The translations under genes and the position numbers were made by a program. From Pirellulales bacterium (GTDB lineage Bacteria; Planctomycetota; Planctomycetia; Pirellulales; UBA1268), in contig JADHSL010000006.1 in the NCBI GenBank assembly GCA_016776925.1, forward strand, positions 1 to 64,000: a stretch of DNA of 64,000 nt. The letters are read 5' to 3'. The notes beneath the pieces are model-generated. The model was not told the origin of the DNA. It saw only the letters and a program-made list of their open reading frames with translations, and ran no database searches. Of this stretch, positions 37,649 through 49,244 are shown in pieces (positions within the stretch are counted from its first letter, which is position 1; each line of letters starts with the position of its first letter).

Positions 37649-38644
37649 TCAGCTTCTTGGATGGTATTGCAGATGAACACTCTTCAGTCGTCCAGAATCG
37701 ACGTGAGTGTACCGCTGTGTTGTAGCTATGCTGGCGTGCCCTAGCATTTCCTGAACGTGTCTCAGATCAACTCCACCGGCTACAAGATGAGTGGCAAAGC
37801 TGTGTCGAAGAGTATGGGGTGAAATGTTGTCGGCAAGGCCTGCAGAGGTGGCATGCTCGCGAACAATTTCCCAGATTCGCATTCGCGAGAGTCTATTGCC
37901 CCTCGTGGACACAATGACGTAGTTCTGTTCACTCAAGCGAGACACAAATTGAGATCTGTGATCACGTATCCACTGTGAGATCGCAGCATGAGCCCGCTGT
38001 CCAAGAGGAACCACCCGTTCTTTGTTCCCTTTGCCACGGCATGTGCAGAATTGCTCCTCGAGACGGAGATCGTCTAGCTTGAGTGAAGACACTTCCGAAG
38101 CACGGCAACCGGTGGCATAGAGCAGTTCTAAGAGGGCACGGTCACGTGAGCCTGTAGCAGTAAATCGTGACGGGCTGTCAAGCAAGAGATCAACTTGACG
38201 CGATGACAAAACGGCGGGGATCGTGTCATCGGGGCGAGCCAAGACAAGTTGTTCGGCAGGGTTGTCCGTCATGATTCCTTCAAGTTGAAGGAAAGAATAA
38301 AAGCACCTGAGTGTGGCTGCTTTTCTTGAAATTGTGGCTCGAGATTGTTTCTCATCAGAGAGTGTGCCGAGGTACTCTCCAAGGTCTTGGATCGTTGTTG
38401 TCAGGGGAGAACGGCCACTGAGCCACGCTCCAAATGATTGGAGGTCACGTCGGTATGCCGACTGGGTGTTCTCGGCGAGGCCTCTTTCATGACGGATGAA
38501 GGCAAGAAATCGTTCGATGAGTTCGTCGATACGAATCGTCGAAAGAACCTTGCTCTGCGGGCCCTTAAAAGCAATCTTTCGAATGCGTGAGCGTGGCGCA
38601 TTTTTCTGCTTCTTGATGCTCGTGCCTGGTTGCTTTTTTCCCAT
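37649..38644 (-). CDS. Tyrosine recombinase XerC/XerD
   Basis: This 331-residue tyrosine recombinase probably resolves chromosome dimers at the dif site. The N-terminal SAM-like core-binding domain (about residues 38-125) is followed by the catalytic domain with Arg181 (ATGCRASE), Lys205 in GKGNKER, His277 and Arg280 (PHTLRHSFATHL), His303 (LGHAS) and Tyr312 (TTQRYTHV). All catalytic residues are present. The first 33 residues are very basic and extra to the usual family length. Xer-type lineage C or D cannot be told by eye. It is on the same strand as metH, 52 bases downstream of it, which gives no functional hint. Confidence 0.9.
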   Translation of the reverse strand: MGKKQPGTSIKKQKNAPRSRIRKIAFKGPQSKVLSTIRIDELIERFLAFIRHERGLAENTQSAYRRDLQSFGAWLSGRSPLTTTIQDLGEYLGTLSDEKQSRATISRKAATLRCFYSFLQLEGIMTDNPAEQLVLARPDDTIPAVLSSRQVDLLLDSPSRFTATGSRDRALLELLYATGCRASEVSSLKLDDLRLEEQFCTCRGKGNKERVVPLGQRAHAAISQWIRDHRSQFVSRLSEQNYVIVSTRGNRLSRMRIWEIVREHATSAGLADNISPHTLRHSFATHLVAGGVDLRHVQEMLGHASIATTQRYTHVDSGRLKSVHLQYHPRS

Positions 38645-38696
38645 GGAGTTGATTCATCTGAGCGGAAAAAGGAAATCCTCAAATCAACTCCAGAAA

Positions 38697-41600
38697 TCAA
38701 GGGTCGTACCCAAGGTTCGGCGCGAGCCAACGCTCGATCTCTTTTTCTGCCATCCCTTTTCGAGTAGCGTACGATTGCACTTGTTCACGAGTGATTCTGT
38801 CTACAGCAAAGTATCGGCTTTCCGGGTGGCCAAAGTAGAGGCCGCACACGCTTGCCGCTGGTATCATCGCAAAGTTCTCTGTGAGACTCATGCCAGCAAC
38901 ATTTTCTGCATCGAGTAGTTGGAATAAGGCCGGTTTTTCTGTGTGATCCGGACAGGCCGGATAACCGGGAGCAGGACGAATACCGCGGTACTTTTCCGCA
39001 ATAAGATCATTCGTTCCAAGCTGCTCTTGTTTCCCGAAACCCCAGTCCTTTCGTGCTTTTTGATGGAGCCATTCTGCAAACGCCTCAGCGAGTCGATCAG
39101 CAAGTGCTTTAACCATGATTGAGTTGTAGTCATCGTGATCTTTATCAAACTGTTCAGCGAATTCATTGCAGCCATGACCGGCAGTGCATGCAAAGGCCCC
39201 AACATAATCTTTGCGTCCACTTGACACGGGTGCGACAAAGTCGGCTAACGCGTAGAAGGTTTCTTGTCCACGTCGCTCCCATTGTTGTCTGAGAGTGTAG
39301 ATCCGACCAGTTTCATTTTGTCGGTCGTCATCATCAAAAAGAACGATGTCATCTCCGTCACTATTTGCAGGAAAGAAGCCGTAGACTCCACGAGCCTCAA
39401 GTTTCTGTGTGGTGACGATGTCATCTAGAAGTTTTTGAGCATCATCGAAAAGTTTTTTGGCTTCATTGCCGACCGTAACATCATCGAAAATAGTCGGGTA
39501 TTTTCCCTTTAGTTCCCAGGCCATGAAAAATGGTGACCAATCGATAAAGGGAATAAGCTCCTCAAGCGATACTTTTGGAAGGTGGCGAAGGCCGAGAAAC
39601 TCCGGTTTCTCAATCTCGGCGAGTGACCAGTCGGTCGTCCAGCGTTTTTCAACGGCGGTTTTATACGGTACGAGCTTGACTTGTTGGCGGTTCTTGAAAT
39701 TTTCAAGGTCCCTTGCCTGAGCTTGGCGGTTTGCTTCTCCAAACGCCTCTTTAGAAGCTGGGTTCAGTAATTTCTCAACAACGCCAGCCGCACGCGAGGC
39801 ATCTGTTACGTGAACGACGTTTCCAGAGTACTGAGGGGCAATTTTTACCGCAGTGTGACGCGTTGATGTCGTCGCGCCGCCAATCAAAAGAGGGACCTCG
39901 AACTTTTCATGCTGGAACTCTTTTGCGACCTGAACCATTTCATCAAGGCTTGGAGTGATGAGGCCAGAAAGACCAACAATATCGACGTTCTCCTCGCGAG
40001 CTTTGTCGATGATCGTGGCACATGGAACCATGACACCGATATCAATTATTTCGTAGCCATTGCAGCCTAAAACAACACCAACAATGTTTTTTCCGATGTC
40101 ATGCACATCACCTTTGACGGTTGCTAAGAGAATACGACCACGCTTTGTTTCCTCCTCACCTTGTGCTTTTTTCTCCTCTTCCATGTAAGGCAAGAGATGT
40201 GCAACGGCCTTCTTCATGACACGCGCGCTTTTTACCACCTGAGGAAGAAACATCTTGCCTTCACCGAAGAGATCGCCGACTGTCTGCATGCCACTCATGA
40301 GCGGCCCTTCAATGATCTGAAGGCCCGTGTCATACTTGGTTCTGGCCTCTTCGATATCGTCCTCGACATGATCAGTAAGCCCTTTAAGTAATGCGTGTGC
40401 GAGCCGGTCGTCGATGTCGAGTTCCCGCCACTCATCAACTTTTTTAGAGCCGCTTTCGCCATCACCTTTCACGGTTTCTGCAAAATCAATCAACCTGTCA
40501 GTCGCATCTTCCCGGCGGTCAAACAAGACATCTTCAATTTTCTCGAGGAGTTCGTGGTCGATGTCTTCATAAAGCGCAAGTTGGCCTGCGTTGACGATCC
40601 CCATGTCCATACCGGCTTTGATGGCATGATAAAGAAAAGCAGCATGCATCGCCTCACGAACAAGGTTGTTTCCTCGGAACGAGAAGGAGATATTGCTCAC
40701 GCCGCCAGAAATTTTTGCGAGTGGCATTTTTTCTTTGATCTGTCGCGTCGCCTCAATGAAATTTATCGCATAGCGATTATGCTCCTCCATCCCAGTGGCT
40801 ACCGTAAGAATATTGGGATCGAAAATAATATCCTCGGGAGGGAAGTCAGCCTTTTCCGTAAGGAGTTGGTAGGCTCGTTCACATATTGCGACTTTATTAT
40901 CTATGTCGGTGGCCTGGCCATGCTCGTCAAACGCCATGACAACGACAGCGGCTCCATAATCACGGATAATTCGAGCCTGTTTGAGGAACATATCCTCGCC
41001 CTCTTTTAGGCTGATTGAATTGACGATGCCTTTTCCCTGAATGCACTTCAGGCCAGCCTCAAGGACTCCCCATCGAGATGAGTCAATCATGATGGGGACA
41101 CGAGAGACATCAGGTTCACTGGAAAGGAGCGTCAGGAATTTCGTCATGACAGCTGGTCCGTCGAGCATGCCTTCGTCAACATTGACATCAATGATGTTGG
41201 CCCCATTTTCAACCTGTTGTCGGGCAACACTCAGAGCAGCCTCATAATTTTCTTCTTTAATAAGCCGGGCAAACGCTCGTGATCCTGTGATGTTTGTGCG
41301 TTCACCAATGATCGTAAAACTGCTCTCAGGACGGACTTCGAGAAGTTCAAGGCCAGAGTAACGGCTCAATCGTGGTTGATCTGGTGATCGTCGTGGTGGG
41401 TGAAGAGAGACTTCGTCAGCAATAGCACGAATATGGTCTGGAGTTGTTCCACAACATCCACCAACGATGTTGAGGAAACCATCACGAGCAAATTCACCGA
41501 TGACGGACGCCATCATTTCTGGGGTCTCATCGAAGCCTCCGAGAGCATTGGGCAACCCGGCGTTGGGGTAGCAGCTCACCATACGAGGACAGATACGAGA

Positions 41601-42389
41601 GAGATCTGCGAGATAAGGACGAAGCTTTTCAGGGCCGAGCGCGCAGTTGATTCCGGCGCTCAGTAAGTTTGCATGAGAGATGCTCTGATAGCATGCATCG
41701 ACGGTCTGGGCAGAAAGCGTTCGTCCGCCTTCGAAGACAGTAAACGATGCCATGATTGGTACTGCTATGCCTGTCGACCGGAAGGATTCTTCAATAGCAA
41801 GCAAGGCCGCTTTCAGCACAAGGGTGTCAAACGCTGTTTCTGCAAGAAGGAGGTCGACACCTCCCTCGAGAAGCGCTTCTATCTGCGCTCTGTAGCATGC
41901 AACCATTTCGTCAAAAGTGACATCACGATGTCCTGGGTCAGCTACGTTTCCAGCAATTGAGAGCTGCTTATTCGTTGGCCCTATTGAGCCTGCAACAAAA
42001 CGTGGTTTGTCAGGGGTTTTCAGTGTCGCTGCGTCAGCGGCTTCCCTTGCGATCCTGCAGGCAGCAAGATTCAATTCTCGGGTATGGTCTTGGAGTCCAA
42101 AGTCTGCCAAGGCCACAGGTGTTGCACCAAATGTGTTGGTTTCAACAATGTCGGCACCAGCCTCTAGGAAAGAGGCGTGAATCTGCTTTATGGCATCTGG
42201 CTGTGAAAGCGTTAAAGCGTCAATACAGTTTTTCAGATCACGCTCATTGTCTCGGAAAGGTTCGCCTCGAAAACCCTGTTCATCCAGGCCGAGAGCATGA
42301 ACCATTGTGCCCATAGCACCATCTAAAATAGCAATTCGTTCATTGAGAACGTTAAGAAAATCTTTCGAACGGTTTGTGGAAATCTCCAT
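38697..42389 (-). CDS. metH: Cobalamin-dependent methionine synthase
   Basis: MetH moves a methyl group from methyltetrahydrofolate through cobalamin to homocysteine. The 1230-residue protein holds all four modules in order: homocysteine domain with the zinc cysteines in NCALGPE and [11 protein letters not shown] (residues 1-330); folate domain ([28 protein letters not shown]); cobalamin-binding domain with the cap and the motif [10 protein letters not shown] supplying the axial His, then DIGVMVP; and the C-terminal reactivation domain (about 905-1220, [15 protein letters not shown]) which binds AdoMet. The upstream 320 bases have no riboswitch I can recognise. Confidence 0.97.
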
Positions 42390-42709
42390 CGCGCTTTCTG
42401 GTCGGTCGTGGGTGTAATTATGGAACAGAATCGGAAGGACGCTGTTTTCACAAAAATACGTCGAATCCTGCCCAAATTATAGGCCAGTTAATGATCTTGG
42501 GATACTGTGATGTGTTCTTTGCGGGGATTGCCCAGTGCTCATGAAATACGCCTGTGTTTGAGAATTTGGGCTGATGGCCGTGGATGTAGTGGTGGAAAAA
42601 GAAATTTCAAACAATGACCACGACCTCAGGTGGGTCAAACTCTACTGAAGGTACCTCTGCTCTCTAAAGGATTTGGCTCATTTAAGACGAGAACCTGATC
42701 AGGGGAAGT
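42390..42709. other. 320-base divergent intergenic region, metH and the membrane-protein cassette
   Basis: No gene is visible here. It must hold the promoters of metH (leftward) and of the gene at 42710 (rightward). I looked for a cobalamin box and for SAM-type riboswitch cores on the metH side and found neither. Nothing else stands out. Confidence 0.5.
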
Positions 42710-43309
42710 ATGGATCTGATTGCAATTTTTCCACGTGTACGGCATACGAAACGCTGTCTTTCGTCAGGAGACAGCTGTCGTGAGCCTGTGTGTAACCCTG
42801 AGTCGTTGTACACACATGAATCGGTGCGGCGTTTGTGTCCGTCGCACGAAGATAATCAGTTGATGAAACAATTCGATGCGGCTTGGCTAGCCGGCTTTCG
42901 AGCAGCATCCCAGGCCAGCAAGGCATCGTGTGTTTTGAAGGAATCTCGGCACGAGCCCATGATTCAATCCAGCAGCCAGAAGGCTCGGCAACAAAGTTTG
43001 CCCATGCCGGTGATAGCTGAAAATAGTAGGCGGCATGTAAAGGATTTGGAATCGACTGCGAAAACAAAAAAACGGACCGTTAAGGCTCGAGGGGACGTAG
43101 ATAAGTCTCGAAAAAATATTCGCCTTGCGGCGTTATATCTGCCATCGCTGACGTTGTGGGTCCTGTCTTTCATTGCGGCCGTAATCTGGCTTGGTGTCTT
43201 TTTTGTTGAGCGGCAGCCAACTGCACATGAGAACGTTCACGGAATAGGAACTGTTCGTTTTGCGGAAACACCTGTTTCATCGTATGGACAAGAAAAAAGT
43301 AGGCAGTAG
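42710..43309 (+). CDS. Single-pass membrane protein, first gene of a three-gene cassette
   Basis: I do not recognise a family. The 199-residue product has a Cys-containing N-terminal part (Cys at residues 16, 23, 28 and 43, possibly metal-binding), a basic middle (residues 105-137, KTKKRTVKARGDVDKSRKN), one clear membrane helix (about 140-166, LYLPSLTLWVLSFIAAVIWLGVFF) and a short tail after it. An AGGGGAAG site precedes ATG 42710, though later starts such as the Met at residue 52 are possible. The stop TAG is directly followed by the ATG of the next gene. It may anchor the two P-loop proteins that follow to the membrane. Confidence 0.6.
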   Translation: MDLIAIFPRVRHTKRCLSSGDSCREPVCNPESLYTHESVRRLCPSHEDNQLMKQFDAAWLAGFRAASQASKASCVLKESRHEPMIQSSSQKARQQSLPMPVIAENSRRHVKDLESTAKTKKRTVKARGDVDKSRKNIRLAALYLPSLTLWVLSFIAAVIWLGVFFVERQPTAHENVHGIGTVRFAETPVSSYGQEKSRQ

Positions 43310-44059
43310 ATGCAATTCGACCGACTCGATCAAAGTTTTTTGAATCATGCAACACTCTTGGAGCAGCAGGGTGCAGTGTGTGCGGAGCTCGACGCTGGGC
43401 CTACTACCGCCCGTGAAAGTGCAAGCAATAAAGCAACTCGTGGAAAAGCTAGCCTGGACAAGCAGCGACAAGGTGGTTCAACGCAACTAGAGATGTCTGA
43501 GGAAAGTGCTCTCGACGACGTATTAGCGATGCTTCTAACGGCAGTGCCAGAGCAATGGGAAATGCTTGCAGATCGAATTGTGGATGCCCGGAAAAAGGGA
43601 TGTCGCATCATCGCTATTGCCGGCCACCATGCTCAGGAGGGGCGGACAACAATCACACGGGGTTTATCCTCAGTCTTGCGGTCAGATGGCCGGCAGGTTC
43701 GTTGTCTGGGCTCTTCACAAGAGCTCTGGCGCGAGTTAATCGGTGACTCTGGGATGTGGCAGCTGCATCAGGACCGACAGGGTTGCCTTGAGTCGCAATG
43801 GAAAGAAGATATTATTCTCGTGGATTCAGGTGTCTGGTTTCCACCCGGCCCATTCCGAAAGCAAGATATAGCGTCCCGCGTTTTTGGTTGTGATGCCGTG
43901 CTGTTGGTTCGTCACGCGGATGTGACCCCCTGCCCTAGTCGGCAGCAATTCCTGTTGAGTCTAGGTGTCTTTCCTATCGGAGAAGTTGTAACCTTCTCTG
44001 GCCATAAAGATTGTGGTCCTGTTTCACGGGATGTACTGAACTCCTCCTGTATCGCTTAA
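43310..44059 (+). CDS. ParA/BY-kinase-like P-loop protein with altered Walker A
   Basis: The 249-residue protein has a low-complexity N-terminal part, then a domain resembling the ParA/MinD or exopolysaccharide tyrosine-kinase (CpsD/Wzc) fold. Strand CRIIAIAG leads into a loop GHHAQEGRTT (residues 105-114), where family members have xxxxGEGKTT, so the second Walker Lys is Arg112. The Walker B-like strand is DIILVDSG (Asp172). Later strands CDAVLLVRH and the segment PIGEVVTFSG fit the ParA order. No Tyr-rich tail is seen. It lies base-to-base after the membrane-protein gene. ATP hydrolysis is doubtful. Confidence 0.68.
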   Translation: MQFDRLDQSFLNHATLLEQQGAVCAELDAGPTTARESASNKATRGKASLDKQRQGGSTQLEMSEESALDDVLAMLLTAVPEQWEMLADRIVDARKKGCRIIAIAGHHAQEGRTTITRGLSSVLRSDGRQVRCLGSSQELWRELIGDSGMWQLHQDRQGCLESQWKEDIILVDSGVWFPPGPFRKQDIASRVFGCDAVLLVRHADVTPCPSRQQFLLSLGVFPIGEVVTFSGHKDCGPVSRDVLNSSCIA

Positions 44060-44075
44060 TTCGGAGGGTACTGCA

Positions 44076-44840
44076 ATGGTTCGGGACAAGTCGTTCGGTT
44101 CTTGTGAACCCCAAGGAGCTGAAAGAAAGCCCACAGAGCTGGTACAAACAGACCAGTTGGTGGGTCAAGGTACGAGTCAGCCGGTAGTTCGGCCTCAGGA
44201 TTTCAGCCTGTTCCACTCCCAGCGAGCCGCAGTCGCGCGTTTGCAGTATGCGGCTACTCAGGAAGCGAGTCTTGCAATTCTTTGTGGCCCAGGTGGTTCC
44301 GGCGTATCAACCGTTTTGAGTGCCTTGTCTACAAATCTTCAGCATGTAGCACATGTCGTTCAGATCGATTTGAGGACACTTGAGACATTCTCGAAACTTG
44401 CGCCGTATTCGAACAGTGAGGCACTTGTTTTCGCGATCGATAATTGTCATCTGGCGTCAGACTGCATGTTAGGGTCAGTTTCGGATGCTATATGGCGGCA
44501 ATCACCAAAAGCGTCTGTTGTTCTTGGTGGTCGTGGACGATTGCTGACGCTTTTAGCACGAGATCGTGGTTTGTTAGATAAGGCTTTGTTGCGGTCGGTT
44601 CTACATCCGTTTTCACTCGCTGAGACACGGGCTGTCGTGCAATCACGATTGAGCGGGAACGGTTTGTTTTATTCGGAAAGAGTACCGGAAGTCATTCATG
44701 AAGTGACAGCAGGCATTGCAGAAAATATTTTTCGTCTCATCGGCATGGCACAACTTGTCGGTGGTGGGCTTCCCGGCCAGCCAATTGAGGTTGCTGATAT
44801 CGAGCAGATCCACGAACGGCTTTATGCCGCAGCGGCATAA
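44076..44840 (+). CDS. ExeA/AAA-like ATPase with degenerate Walker motifs
   Basis: The 254-residue protein resembles ExeA/GspA-type AAA proteins: FHSQRAAVARLQYAATQEASLAILCGPGGSG, then IDNCHLA, and a C-terminal helical lid with RLIGMAQLVGG. The Walker A loop is GPGGSGVST (residues 71-79) with the essential Lys replaced by Val77, and the Walker B pair reads Asp122-Asn123 instead of Asp-Glu. It probably does not hydrolyse ATP, so a scaffold or regulator role is more likely. GGAGGG before ATG 44076 marks the start. It is the third gene of the cassette, 16 bases after the ParA-like gene. Confidence 0.68.
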   Translation: MVRDKSFGSCEPQGAERKPTELVQTDQLVGQGTSQPVVRPQDFSLFHSQRAAVARLQYAATQEASLAILCGPGGSGVSTVLSALSTNLQHVAHVVQIDLRTLETFSKLAPYSNSEALVFAIDNCHLASDCMLGSVSDAIWRQSPKASVVLGGRGRLLTLLARDRGLLDKALLRSVLHPFSLAETRAVVQSRLSGNGLFYSERVPEVIHEVTAGIAENIFRLIGMAQLVGGGLPGQPIEVADIEQIHERLYAAAA

Positions 44841-44936
44841 AGGTTTTGTGTGCGTAGCGAAGCACCCCGAATGAAACATTTTCTGCTTTGCTCTTGCTAG
44901 CCGGTATTCTGTTGATGTCATGTGATCTGGAATTGT

Positions 44937-44988
44937 CTCCTGTCCTTGCATTTGTGGAAACTCCGGCGACAGGAGGGCGAAGTTTTTT
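44937..44988 (+). terminator. Candidate terminator after the three-gene cassette
   Basis: CTCCTGTC (44937-44944) pairs perfectly with GACAGGAG (44968-44975) around a 23-base loop, and six T bases follow at 44983-44988. The loop is longer than usual. It ends the transcript of the gene stopping at 44840 in this reading. The surrounding 315-base gap up to fucP holds no supported gene. Confidence 0.4.
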
Positions 44989-45079
44989 CTGGACCGAGGC
45001 TGTTTGTTCATTAACGAAGTTCCTGCAAGTGGCCGGAATCCGGTGTTTACCTGATCTGGCTCTGAAAACGCAGATGTGT

Positions 45080-45091
45080 TTGTTACAACAA
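45080..45091 (+). promoter_or_regulatory. Inverted repeat before fucP, possible operator
   Basis: TTGTT and AACAA flank the two bases AC, giving a 12-base dyad about 65 bases before the fucP start. Sugar-operon repressors of the LacI or GntR kind bind dyads of this size. The dyad is AT-rich and could arise by chance, and no regulator gene is next to the cluster. Confidence 0.25.
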
Positions 45092-45155
45092 TGTTGAGCT
45101 AATCCGGGGAACTGTCCGTATTGAAGTGCGGTGGTGTCTATTGAGGAGGTTTGGA

Positions 45156-46571
45156 ATGCAGGAATCAACAAAACCAGGTCAGGCTCCACAAGATTCGGTC
45201 GTGCCGAAGCAATTTGTGGCACCGTTTATTCTCGTCACATCACTCTTTGCGCTCTGGGGCTTCGCGAATGATATTACCAATCCGTTGGTCCGAGCATTCA
45301 AAGAGATATTCCTTATCTCTAATGCCCAAAGCAGTTTAGTGCAGTGGGCCTTTTATGGTGGCTATGCCACGATGGCGATTCCCGCAGCGCTCCTGATAAG
45401 AAAAGTTTCCTACAAGTCTGGGATTATTATTGGCCTCCTTTTGTACGCACTAGGCGCCGCAATGACGATTCCGGCCAGTTTGATGATGGAATTTAATGTT
45501 TTTCTCGTTGGGTTTTACATCCTGACGTTTGGGCTCGCTTTTTTAGAGACAACGGCCAATCCATATATTCTTTCGATGGGGCCTCGCAGTACTGCAACGC
45601 AGAGGTTGAACCTAGCGCAAGCATTCAACCCGATTGGTTCACTGACCGGGATGGTTGTTGCCAGTATGTTTATTCTTCCTGGACTTGAGGTGTCCAAATT
45701 TAGAGATGTAGAAATGGATAACCATCCGGAATATCAGACGATGCTGCCCAGCGAGGTCGATGGTCTTATAACGAAGGCTATGGAGCAGTCCGCAGAGGCA
45801 AATCCTGAAAAGTACACCTCAATGGTGTCACACGATTTAGCTGTTGTTCGGACGCCCTATGTGGTCATCGCGTTAGTTGTGCTTGCTGTCTTACTGCTTT
45901 TTGTTATTTCGAAGTTGCCGGATACGGGGCATGAGGAGGAGCAGATTCATCTGGCAACGCTAGCACGAAATCTGTTCACAAATTGGCAATATGTTGGGGG
46001 TGTCATTGCGCAGACGTTTTACGTTGGCGCACAAATAATGTGCTGGACATTTATTATTCACTATGGGATGACGCTCGTGGGTTTGAGTTCAGCAGAGGCA
46101 CAAAATTATAATATTGTTGCAATGGGCATTTTCCTTGCCAGTCGGTTTATTTGCACGTTTATATTGAAGTACATATCACCGGGCTTATTGCTTGGGGTGC
46201 TTGCTGTTGGTGGTGGTTTGCTGACTGCTGGGGCAATATTCCTGCAGGGTTATACAGGGCTTTATTGTCTTGTTGGTGTGTCTGCCTGCATGTCAGTGAT
46301 GTTTCCAACAATTTACGGAATCGCACTCAATGGGCTCAGTCCGAATGATGCAAAATTAGGGTCAGCCGGATTGATTTTTGCAATTGTTGGTGGTGCGTTT
46401 ATGCCACGCTATCAAGGAGCAATAATTGACGGAGCCGGTATGACGATCGCTGGGCAGGCGCTTGAATCAGTGCGACTTTCATTCTTCCTTCCGCTCAGTT
46501 GTTTTGTCGTTATCGCAATTTTTGGTTTTGCGGTCGCGTTGTGCTCTCCGAGGCCAGTTGCAGAATCCTGA
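45156..46571 (+). CDS. fucP: L-fucose:proton symporter FucP family
   Basis: This 471-residue major-facilitator protein imports L-fucose with protons across the inner membrane. The N-terminal segment FILVTSLFALWGFANDITNPLVRAFKEIF is the hallmark of FucP, with the proton-coupling acidic residue region intact (Asp in FAND, Glu later in FLETTANPYI), and twelve membrane helices can be counted roughly. The start ATG 45156 has GAGGAGG upstream. Between helices 6 and 7 is an unusually long hydrophilic loop (about residues 185-235). fucI follows 52 bases downstream. Other FucP relatives carry glucose or galactose, but the cluster decides for fucose. Confidence 0.9.
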   Translation: MQESTKPGQAPQDSVVPKQFVAPFILVTSLFALWGFANDITNPLVRAFKEIFLISNAQSSLVQWAFYGGYATMAIPAALLIRKVSYKSGIIIGLLLYALGAAMTIPASLMMEFNVFLVGFYILTFGLAFLETTANPYILSMGPRSTATQRLNLAQAFNPIGSLTGMVVASMFILPGLEVSKFRDVEMDNHPEYQTMLPSEVDGLITKAMEQSAEANPEKYTSMVSHDLAVVRTPYVVIALVVLAVLLLFVISKLPDTGHEEEQIHLATLARNLFTNWQYVGGVIAQTFYVGAQIMCWTFIIHYGMTLVGLSSAEAQNYNIVAMGIFLASRFICTFILKYISPGLLLGVLAVGGGLLTAGAIFLQGYTGLYCLVGVSACMSVMFPTIYGIALNGLSPNDAKLGSAGLIFAIVGGAFMPRYQGAIIDGAGMTIAGQALESVRLSFFLPLSCFVVIAIFGFAVALCSPRPVAES

Positions 46572-46623
46572 TCGGTAGAACGTTTCATTCCATAGAAGTT
46601 TCCTAGTCGGTGAGAAATAATCC

Positions 46624-48426
46624 ATGAGTACAGCCCCCACAGTCTGGAACGGTGTTCTTCCACGAGTTGGTATTCGGCCAACAATTGATGGTCGACTTGG
46701 TGGAGTTCGTGAATCATTAGAAGACCAGACAATGAACCTCGCCAGGCGAGTTGCAGAATTAATATCGAGCCAACTGCGGTATCCAAATGGAGAAGTAGTC
46801 GATTGTGTCATAGCAGAAACATGCATCGGTGGAGTTGCAGAGGCGAGCGCATGCGATGACTTGTTTCGCCGTGAAAACGTCGGTGTTTCACTGACTGTGA
46901 CACCCTGCTGGTGTTATGGTAGCGAGACCATGGATATGGATCCGCTGCGTCCTAAAGCCGTGTTTGGATTTAATGGAACGGAACGACCGGGCGCGGTGTA
47001 CCTGGCTGCAGTGCTCGCTGGTCACAGTCAAAAAGGAATACCGGCATTTGGAATTTACGGCCGAGATGTACAGGATGCGGGTGATGCTGCTATGCCTGCT
47101 GATGTACGGGGCAAAATTCTCGATTTTGTGCAGTGCGGTTTAGCTGCAGCCTTAATGCGGGGAAAAGCCTATTTATCGATGGGTGGAACCTCGATGGGTA
47201 TCGCTGGTTCGATGGTCGACTATGCATTCTGGGAGAAGTGGCTCGGCATGCGAGTTGAGGACATTGATATGACCGAGTTCGTTGGTCGCATGCAGAAGGG
47301 GCAGTTTGATCCTGCGGAGTATGAACGAGCAACTGCGTGGGTGAAAGAACATTGTGTAGAAGGTGAAGATTATAATAGTCAGGAGACTCAGCGATCGCGT
47401 GAGCAGATCGATTCAGAATGGTCTGACTCTGTCAAAATGTCGTTGATCGCTCGAGATCTGATGGTTGGCAACCCACAACTGGCCAAGATGGGCTTGGAGG
47501 AACAGGCACAGGGGCACGGTGCAATTGCCTCTGGATTCCAAGGGCAACGCCAATGGACTGATCACTTTCCGAACGGTGATTTTCTTGAAGCGATTCTGAA
47601 TACGTCATTTGACTGGAATGGAAAACGATCGCCATACATCGTTGCGACGGAAAATGATGCACTCAATGCAGCAACAATGCTTTTTGGTCACCTGCTCACG
47701 AATTCTGCCCAAATATTTGCTGACCTTCGGACATATTGGAGCCCGGAGGCTGTTGCAACGGCTTGTGATGGCTACACACTTCAGGGCGCTGCTGCTGATG
47801 GTCTTCTCCACCTTATCAATTCTGGTCCCGCTGCACTCGATGGTACCGGGCAACAGGTGAGTCAAGACGGTAGGCCAACCATGAAGCCCTTCTGGGACAT
47901 TACGGATGATGAAGTGACGAAGTGCCTCAAGGCAACAACGTGGCACCCATCAATAACGGAATATTTTCCTGGTGGTGGTTTGAGTACTCGATATCGAACC
48001 TTGGGGCAGATGCCGGTAACAATGACTCGAATTAATCTTGTGGCAGGTCTCGGGCCAGCGATTCAGATTGCTGAGGGGCAGACGGTCGAACTTCCAGATT
48101 CGGTGCACGACGTTCTTGACCAACGTACGAATCCAACATGGCCAACTACCTGGTTTGCGCCAAACATTACGGGACGCGGGGCATTTACTTCGACGTATGA
48201 GGTGATGAATCATTGGGGGGCAAATCACTGTGTGATGACAGCAGGCCACGTTGGACACCTGTTTATTACATTGGCATCTATTCTTCGAATTCCTGTTTAC
48301 ATGCATAATGTGTCGGACGAACGAGTTTTTCGTCCAAGTGCGTGGAATGCTTTTGGCACCGATGGTCTCGAAGGAGCGGACTTTCGTGCCTGTGAAGCAT
48401 TTGGTCCGCTCTACGCACGTGTCTGA
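46624..48426 (+). CDS. fucI: L-fucose isomerase
   Basis: FucI converts L-fucose to L-fuculose, using a manganese ion. The 600-residue length is normal. The N terminus carries [24 protein letters not shown], the FucI signature, and the family's metal-binding region is seen in the motifs [18 protein letters not shown] and [12 protein letters not shown] near the C terminus. Start is ATG 46624. The gene comes second in the fucP-fucI-aldolase-fucosidase order. The product of FucI must be phosphorylated by a kinase before the aldolase can act; no kinase gene lies nearby. Confidence 0.95.
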
Positions 48427-48488
48427 CGAATTCTTGTCGTGGCGTAGGCAGTGTGAGTAACAGCATTTTTCAGGGATACAGAAGCATT

Positions 48489-49244
48489 ATGTCAGCAACA
48501 ACGTTAGAAACTCTGCTCGAACTTTCTCATTTTCTTGGTGAAGAGAAGCGTCAGTTGGCGATTCTTGGCGAAGGAAACACGTCGGCACAGGTTGACGAGT
48601 CAACGTTCCTCGTCAAAGCAAGTGGAAGCTGTCTTCAGACTCTTGCGACAGACGATCTTGTTGCCTGCCGATTCGATGCCCTGCTTTCGATGCTTGATCA
48701 CGATAAGATGTCAGATCAGGCGATTGAAGAATCACTCATGGCGAGTCGGGTTGATGCATCTGCAAAGAAGCCATCAGTCGAAACTCTTTTTCATGCATAT
48801 CTCCTTTCATTAGAGGGTGTCCATTTTGTTGGGCACACGCATAGTATTGCGGTCAATCAGATTCTTTGCTCACCGCTCGCGGGTCAATTTGCAACGCACA
48901 AGCTTTTTCCAGATGAGATTGTGTGCTGTGGGGCTCGCTCGGTGTTGATTCCTTACACAGACCCTGGACTGACGCTTTCGAAATCCATTCGTTGTGAAAC
49001 CGATTTATTCTTGAAGGAGTACGGCTGCGCACCACGGGTAATTCTTTTAGAGAATCATGGCATTATAACCTTGGGTAAGACGGCAGGAGCCGTAAAGGCG
49101 GCAATGCTTATGGCCCAAAAAGCGGCAGAGATATTTGTAGGAGCGGCGGCTTTAGGAGGTCCTACATTTATGAGTCCAGAAGATGTCAGTCGTATCGCCA
49201 ATCGAACTGACGAGCACTATCGACAGCGTGCGCTGAAGTTGTAG
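48489..49244 (+). CDS. Class II aldolase (L-fuculose-phosphate aldolase-like)
   Basis: The 251-residue product is a zinc-dependent class II aldolase/adducin-type protein. Metal-binding histidines show in the motif HTHSIAVN and in LENHGIITLGK; GEGNTSAQV and KASGSCLQTL are the substrate-binding loops. In this cluster it would split L-fuculose-1-phosphate into DHAP and lactaldehyde. Its sequence also resembles the aldolase half of the rhamnulose-phosphate aldolase/alcohol dehydrogenase fusions, so related substrates are possible. I choose ATG 48489 (MSATTLETLLEL) over GTG 48453. I leave the gene symbol out because the exact substrate is inferred. Confidence 0.82.
   Translation: MSATTLETLLELSHFLGEEKRQLAILGEGNTSAQVDESTFLVKASGSCLQTLATDDLVACRFDALLSMLDHDKMSDQAIEESLMASRVDASAKKPSVETLFHAYLLSLEGVHFVGHTHSIAVNQILCSPLAGQFATHKLFPDEIVCCGARSVLIPYTDPGLTLSKSIRCETDLFLKEYGCAPRVILLENHGIITLGKTAGAVKAAMLMAQKAAEIFVGAAALGGPTFMSPEDVSRIANRTDEHYRQRALKL

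Follow-up and report, generated by a model that had tools for sequence, protein, structure and literature searches.

Background

EcpK of Myxococcus xanthus and HfsB of Caulobacter crescentus are BY pseudokinases that have been proposed to act as ATP-free scaffolds for polysaccharide export; in EcpK all three Walker motifs are missing and the partner is the PCP-2 protein EpsV, and the partner of HfsB is HfsA (PMC12004946). Other described proteins that resemble the products of the locus presented here are the XrtA-associated pairs of an autokinase and an ATPase, the BY-kinases Wzc, CapB and VpsO, the KGGVGR-motif AAA ATPases and the ExeA/GspA proteins. ExeA/GspA proteins combine an AAA domain with a C-terminal peptidoglycan-binding extension. 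Our search of the literature on planctomycete ExeA and tyrosine-kinase loci returned no relevant paper, and the papers searched contained no report of this locus.

Organization of the locus

The window, by which we mean the whole stretch of 64,000 nucleotides that was analyzed, contains three consecutive genes on the forward strand: gene 1 (P1) at 42710-43309, gene 2 (P2) at 43310-44059 and gene 3 (P3) at 44076-44840, which encode proteins of 199, 249 and 254 amino acids. The open reading frame (ORF) coordinates leave 0 bases between genes 1 and 2 and 16 bases between genes 2 and 3, in agreement with the initial annotation, which had described three coupled genes with this spacing, one of them for a membrane protein. 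The first gene indeed encodes one strong hydrophobic segment. On the opposite strand, beside the trio, lies a gene that we take to be metH (38697-42389), and downstream there are three ORFs (45126-49244) that resemble, and presumably encode, a fucose transporter, a fucose isomerase and an aldolase. In L032, L033 and L035, too, the trio is followed by ORFs that match this fucose set in size.

The ORF and its homologues, which are present in four same-genus genomes, describe the gene 1 product as a single-pass membrane protein with a predicted N-in topology. Its transmembrane (TM) segment spans approximately L144-V168 (43139-43213, forward strand), and relatives show a hydropathy peak at the equivalent place. 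At the level of the order, 62 of 80 loci encode a TM protein ahead of gene 2, and 58 of these 62 proteins carry more positive charge before the TM segment than after it. No recognized domain was found in gene 1; the protein evolves fast, and it is the topology that suggests an anchoring role. Many order-level copies (L072-L151) share a C-terminal tail of the approximate form ARxxGxIxxP..R..Y(D/E)R..SS(I/L)Y, predicted to be periplasmic, which gave no family match in the two proteins scanned.

The terminator candidate reported earlier at the end of the trio does exist as a hairpin (44820-44842, forward strand) with a 10-pair stem that overlaps the gene 3 stop codon and a weak T tail, but our terminator scan found 3 such sites against a mean of 3.4 in shuffled sequence, so the number of sites is not above chance. 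A hairpin is also to be expected here from the C-terminal Ala codons of gene 3.

Distribution among related genomes

Homologues of gene 3 were found in 50 of 59 related genomes. In most family-level loci that were read, gene 2 lies directly upstream of gene 3, and a single-TM protein precedes gene 2 wherever the available sequence allows it to be seen. The same trio with the same substitutions, a search that the initial annotation had recommended, is present in the same-genus genomes examined and is therefore not a chance arrangement. When named genomes were searched with the gene 3 profile built at order level, 171 relatives were obtained, of which 80 were kept; gene 2 precedes gene 3 in all 80 of these loci. 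The titles of the relatives are mostly Pirellulales, Thermoguttaceae, Pirellulaceae, Planctomycetaceae or Planctomycetota, and they include Blastopirellula marina DSM 3645, Adhaeretor mobilis and Bythopirellula polymerisocia. Judged from these genome titles rather than from a tree, the order that carries the trio appears to be the Pirellulales. Gene 3 passes a threshold of E<=1e-50 in 116 of 198 order genomes, always as one copy; this cut misses the family to which the window belongs because its members have diverged.

Gene 2 encodes a BY-kinase fold without the Walker A lysine

The window proteins taken alone matched no family above cut-off in the Pfam scan and profile searches, and relatives were required to place them. 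The 249-amino acid product of gene 2 (43310-44059, forward strand), which is single-copy in its own genome, is linked by profile comparison to the order-level copies at E 9.6e-21. Its AlphaFold2 model (pLDDT 78.9) has BceF, Wzc, CapB and Etk as top Foldseek hits, with TM-scores of only 0.3-0.45, and by sequence the order-level copies have VpsO, CapB, Etk and BceF as their best matches in the PDB. The best NCBIfam matches at order level are TIGR03018 (6.5e-15) and TIGR01007, both below cut-off, and NF047398 (KGGVGR-motif ATPase) gives a score of approximately 28-32 bits where the cut-off is 90. The protein had been annotated as ParA/BY-kinase-like. Fold and sequence matches bear out the BY-kinase part of this description; the ParA part does not hold, since the KGGxxK deviant Walker A of ParA/MinD is absent and the window protein has GHHAQEGRTT in its place.

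In this Walker A motif (43622-43651, forward strand) the Lys is replaced by Arg112, encoded by CGG, as had been read from the sequence at the outset. Column counts in relatives show that the replacement is not particular to this locus. Among the 78 order-level copies with a readable motif none has Lys (R26 C22 A15 T6 V5 S2 G1 I1), and the flanks are fixed, with the preceding Gly and the following Thr/Ser found in 78/78 each. The 26 aligned copies from the window's family have R19 C3 A2 S1 V1, and Lys is also absent from the further family copies read beyond these 26. Copies outside the motif pattern that were read by eye likewise lack it (Cys in L223, L230 and L062, Arg in L224). In g11, a genus of the window's family, the gene 2 P-loop is also disrupted. 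Sampled members of two other families of the class have Arg (readable copies of f21) and Ala or Ser (f24). Because the loss is common to the order, the window's family and the sampled members of two other families, we consider it to be old, and the view that the gene 2 alteration was special to this locus has to be given up. The drift of this position among different residues is the behavior expected of a non-catalytic position.

The remaining motifs have been lost to different degrees. Alignments show that Asp172 is retained in the Walker-B region, IILVDSGVWFPPGP (43811-43852, forward strand), and this Asp is present in 80/80 order-level copies. The Walker A-prime Asp (hhhDxD) is found in 74/79 order-level copies and is lost in the window's family. 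A Tyr-rich tail is missing: the final 30 residues contain 0-1 Tyr in every copy, whereas 2-5 Tyr fall within the final 35 residues of the Lys-bearing homologues from other classes. The family alignment revealed an N-terminal motif, DxxDxxF (residues 4-10; 43319-43339, forward strand), that is family-wide, with D4, D7 and F10 invariant where the motif is present; its form in the order-level alignment is xxDxAFIKAY. The best-conserved positions in the family are D4, D7, F10, L75, G97, L123, W176, R201 and G219, and Arg112 is conserved at 73%.

Set against a catalytic BY-kinase, gene 2 therefore has the fold and the Walker-B Asp but lacks the Walker A Lys, the Walker A-prime motif and the C-terminal Tyr cluster. 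It resembles the EcpK/HfsB type in having a BY-kinase fold without the catalytic motifs, although it is only partly degraded and keeps the Walker-B Asp. From these comparisons gene 2 is best read as a BY pseudokinase that comes from a kinase/ExeA-like pair and has become detached from the export machinery.

Gene 3 encodes an AAA protein with degraded catalytic motifs in the window's family

Gene 3 (44076-44840, forward strand) encodes a 254-amino acid AAA protein of the ExeA/TIGR03015 type in which the catalytic motifs are degraded. Its AlphaFold2 model has a pLDDT of 86.3, and structure search returned an AAA+ fold. Alone, the window protein scores 19.4 bits against TIGR03015, for which the cut-off is 324.5; the order-level copies match this model over the full length (6.5e-52, 176.6 bits, also below the cut-off), and the window-family and order-level profiles align at E 2.4e-30. 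The description of gene 3 as ExeA-like is thus correct by descent. The order-level copies have an N-terminal MYxxYW signature, which we take to be linked to the ExeA lineage and which is gone from the window protein. At 254 amino acids the protein comprises the AAA domain only, and the Pfam scan found no C-terminal extension of the ExeA/GspA kind. A search of a defense-system library returned only AAA noise (E 0.003-0.06), and we rejected a defense-system identity for the trio.

The Walker A motif of gene 3 is GPGGSGVST (44286-44312, forward strand), in which Val77 (codon GTA) stands in place of Lys; this loss had been recognized before. The Walker-B motif reads IDN (Asp122-Asn123; 44439-44444, forward strand), and its loss of Glu was absent from the initial annotation. 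The TIGR03015-type residues that are missing in the window (Lys at 77, Glu at 123) are present in the order-level orthologues, which have the Walker A Lys in 80/80, the Walker-B Glu in 76/80 and the sensor-2 Ile-Asn in 79 or 80 of 80. Nearly all aligned copies in the window's family have Asp, Asn or Ser in place of the Glu. The Lys is kept in nine genera of this family and replaced in three, by Val in the window's genus, by Val in g11 and by Thr in g7. Parsimony gives three changes, and the AU test did not reject a single clade (p 0.173). Three independent losses, which the different end residues (Val, Val, Thr) might suggest, are therefore not adopted here, as the AU result allows one clade; judging from the residues and the tree comparison, the Lys was lost at least once and probably more than once.

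Relatives with intact Walker motifs at this locus, which the initial annotation had named as evidence against its own reading, thus exist for gene 3 (Lys in 80/80) but not for gene 2 (0/78). In its order-level form gene 3 resembles a functional ATPase, so the cassette as a whole has not abandoned ATP.

Probable descent from exopolysaccharide clusters

Homologues of genes 2 and 3 that have the Lys adjoin each other in other classes of the phylum, in the sampled cases inside XrtA-type exopolysaccharide clusters. The clusters examined have TIGR03007 chain-length genes beside the Lys-bearing kinase and the ExeA-like ATPase, and some of them (L218, L219, L220) also have TIGR03027 or EpsE-like export genes and ligase-like genes. 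This agrees with the earlier statement that tyrosine kinase-like and ExeA-like genes of planctomycetes occur near exopolysaccharide genes. The alignments and profile matches show that the ancestor of gene 2 was a BY-kinase and that of gene 3 an XrtA/ExeA-type AAA ATPase, kinds that adjoin in exopolysaccharide clusters. The simplest history would be that the pair left such a cluster, settled next to gene 1 (and in many cases metH) and gave up its kinase chemistry, with the direction of change taken from the distribution and not from a rooted tree.

Proposed function and alternatives

We think it rather probable, on the evidence of motifs, predicted folds and gene order, that the cassette is a membrane-anchored, ATP-independent scaffold. 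The gene 1 product would anchor the complex in the inner membrane with its N-terminus in the cytoplasm and its tail in the periplasm, and the gene 2 product would dock on it and carry the gene 3 product. Elsewhere in the order, the gene 3 product would contribute work powered by ATP; in the window's genus the complex would function through binding only, which is the mode of action proposed for EcpK and HfsB. The target would no longer be a Wza/Wzz polysaccharide exporter. Gene 2 retains the glycines of the P-loop as well as Thr114 and the Walker-B Asp, and may therefore still bind nucleotide. The initial annotation had suggested a regulator or scaffold that has given up ATP hydrolysis: a scaffold is still the best reading and both proteins look altered, but the Lys in 80/80 order-level gene 3 copies does not fit a general loss of hydrolysis. 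The broader version, a class-wide scaffold in which the pseudokinase and the AAA protein lose their ATP chemistry in succession while the complex is kept for a target other than polysaccharide export, we offer more tentatively, as one that could well be wrong.

It is rather unlikely, in our estimate, that the trio still regulates surface polysaccharide, with gene 2 acting as a stand-alone pseudokinase for a chain-length protein encoded elsewhere, in the way that EcpK serves EpsV. Such a role would fit the descent from exopolysaccharide clusters and the EcpK/HfsB precedent (PMC12004946), and several trio-bearing relatives have Wza, some of them with Wzz and a canonical BY-kinase (G009, G051). 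However, when the window genome (a 93%-complete assembly of 146 contigs) was searched with one model each, neither Wza (PF02563) nor Wzz (PF02706) was matched and no BY-kinase exceeded the cut-off of TIGR01007. Two same-genus genomes gave the same outcome, yet the trio is kept. Nor does any polysaccharide gene adjoin the trio in the window, as judged from the ORFs. The connection to surface polysaccharide drawn at the outset thus stands for the origin of the pair, and a role in it is doubtful in this organism since Wza, Wzz and a confident BY-kinase were not detected.

The window genome (G000), in which neither Wza nor Wzz was detected, has an exosortase (PF09721, 1.6e-42; G000:C89:7948-8733) and a second, better-matching ExeA-like gene (G000:C63:5393-6178; TIGR03015 1.1e-30, 653-amino acid frame), with a MinD-like gene (C63:1603-2007) approximately 3.4 kb away. 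Hits separated by a few kb on a single contig were also seen in G002, G008, G009, G020, G027, G032, G049 and G053.

Unlikely, and slightly more so than a polysaccharide role, is a working nucleotide switch, in which the Arg/Cys/Ala P-loop of gene 2 would bind ATP, perhaps hydrolyze it slowly, and alternately bind to and leave the membrane or gene 3, in the manner of a positioning protein of the ParA/MinD family. The glycines, Thr/Ser and Walker-B Asp of gene 2 are kept, as is the Walker A-prime Asp in 74/79 order-level copies, and NCBIfam includes a KGGVGR-motif ATPase variant (NF047398) that the order-level copies match weakly. Against these points, the Lys position drifts among eight residues, unlike a catalytic residue, Walker A-prime is lost in the window's family, and K540M, at the same position, is the substitution used in the Wzc structures among the Foldseek hits.

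Very little speaks for the trio as the decaying remnants of a lost exopolysaccharide cluster, a reading that is very improbable even though catalytic residues were lost stepwise and the partner machinery is absent from the window genome. The frames are open, the genes are coupled, gene 3 is single-copy in each of the 116 order genomes that pass E<=1e-50, and there are invariant residues away from the ATP site. Within the genus, dN/dS is 0.21-0.37 for gene 2, 0.11-0.27 for gene 3 and 0.37-0.55 for gene 1; the values for genes 2 and 3 (0.11-0.37) are well below 1, which indicates purifying selection and argues against decay. Equally improbable is a link to methionine or cobalamin metabolism through the conserved place beside metH: of the 61 order-level loci whose upstream sequence is long enough, 27 have a divergent metH, an arrangement that occurs across several families of the order and also in G067 and G071, two genomes from f24, another family of the class, but 34 of the 61 have no metH within the flank, none lies near the trio in f21, an Rfam scan of 38000-49000, including the metH-trio intergenic region, gave no riboswitch or other match, and divergent neighbors can stay paired for non-functional reasons.

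If the broader scaffold reading is true, the locus would offer living intermediates of an enzyme pair turning structural. The graded loss (the gene 2 Lys throughout the order, the Glu of gene 3 across the family, the Lys of gene 3 in three genera) allows a cross-species test of which part of the complex needs ATP, and a conserved planctomycete locus receives a function that can be tested. The pseudokinases of the trio form a deep and uniform set whose membrane partner differs from that of EcpK and HfsB and which is accompanied by an AAA protein; the set persists in genomes where Wza/Wzz machinery was not detected.

Comparison with known systems

Gene 2 shares with EcpK and HfsB the BY-kinase fold, the absence of a Tyr tail, the stand-alone form and an argued scaffold role. 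It differs from EcpK in that only the Lys is lost (and Walker A-prime in the window's family), not all Walker motifs. The trio further differs from both in its neighbor, which is the single-pass gene 1 product instead of a PCP-2 (Wzz) partner, for which no PF02706 match exists in the genome, and in the addition of a third, AAA protein. Wzc, CapB and VpsO provide the best sequence and fold matches of gene 2, but gene 2 has neither the Walker A Lys nor the Tyr cluster and no fused or adjacent PCP. The NF047398 family resembles gene 2 in that Arg replaces the P-loop Lys, but it is a different subfamily, as the weak match (approximately 28-32 bits, cut-off 90) indicates. Gene 3 appears to belong to the same AAA lineage as ExeA/GspA through the MYxxYW signature of the order-level copies; it differs in having no extension past the AAA domain and in the loss of MYxxYW in the window's family. 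The likeness that covers both genes is to the XrtA-associated pair of TIGR03018 autokinase and TIGR03015 ATPase, which the order-level genes 2 and 3 match (6.5e-15 and 6.5e-52) and whose homologues adjoin in the exopolysaccharide clusters of other classes. The trio departs from this pair in scoring below both cut-offs, in the missing Lys of gene 2, and in having gene 1 alongside instead of chain-length, export or ligase genes.
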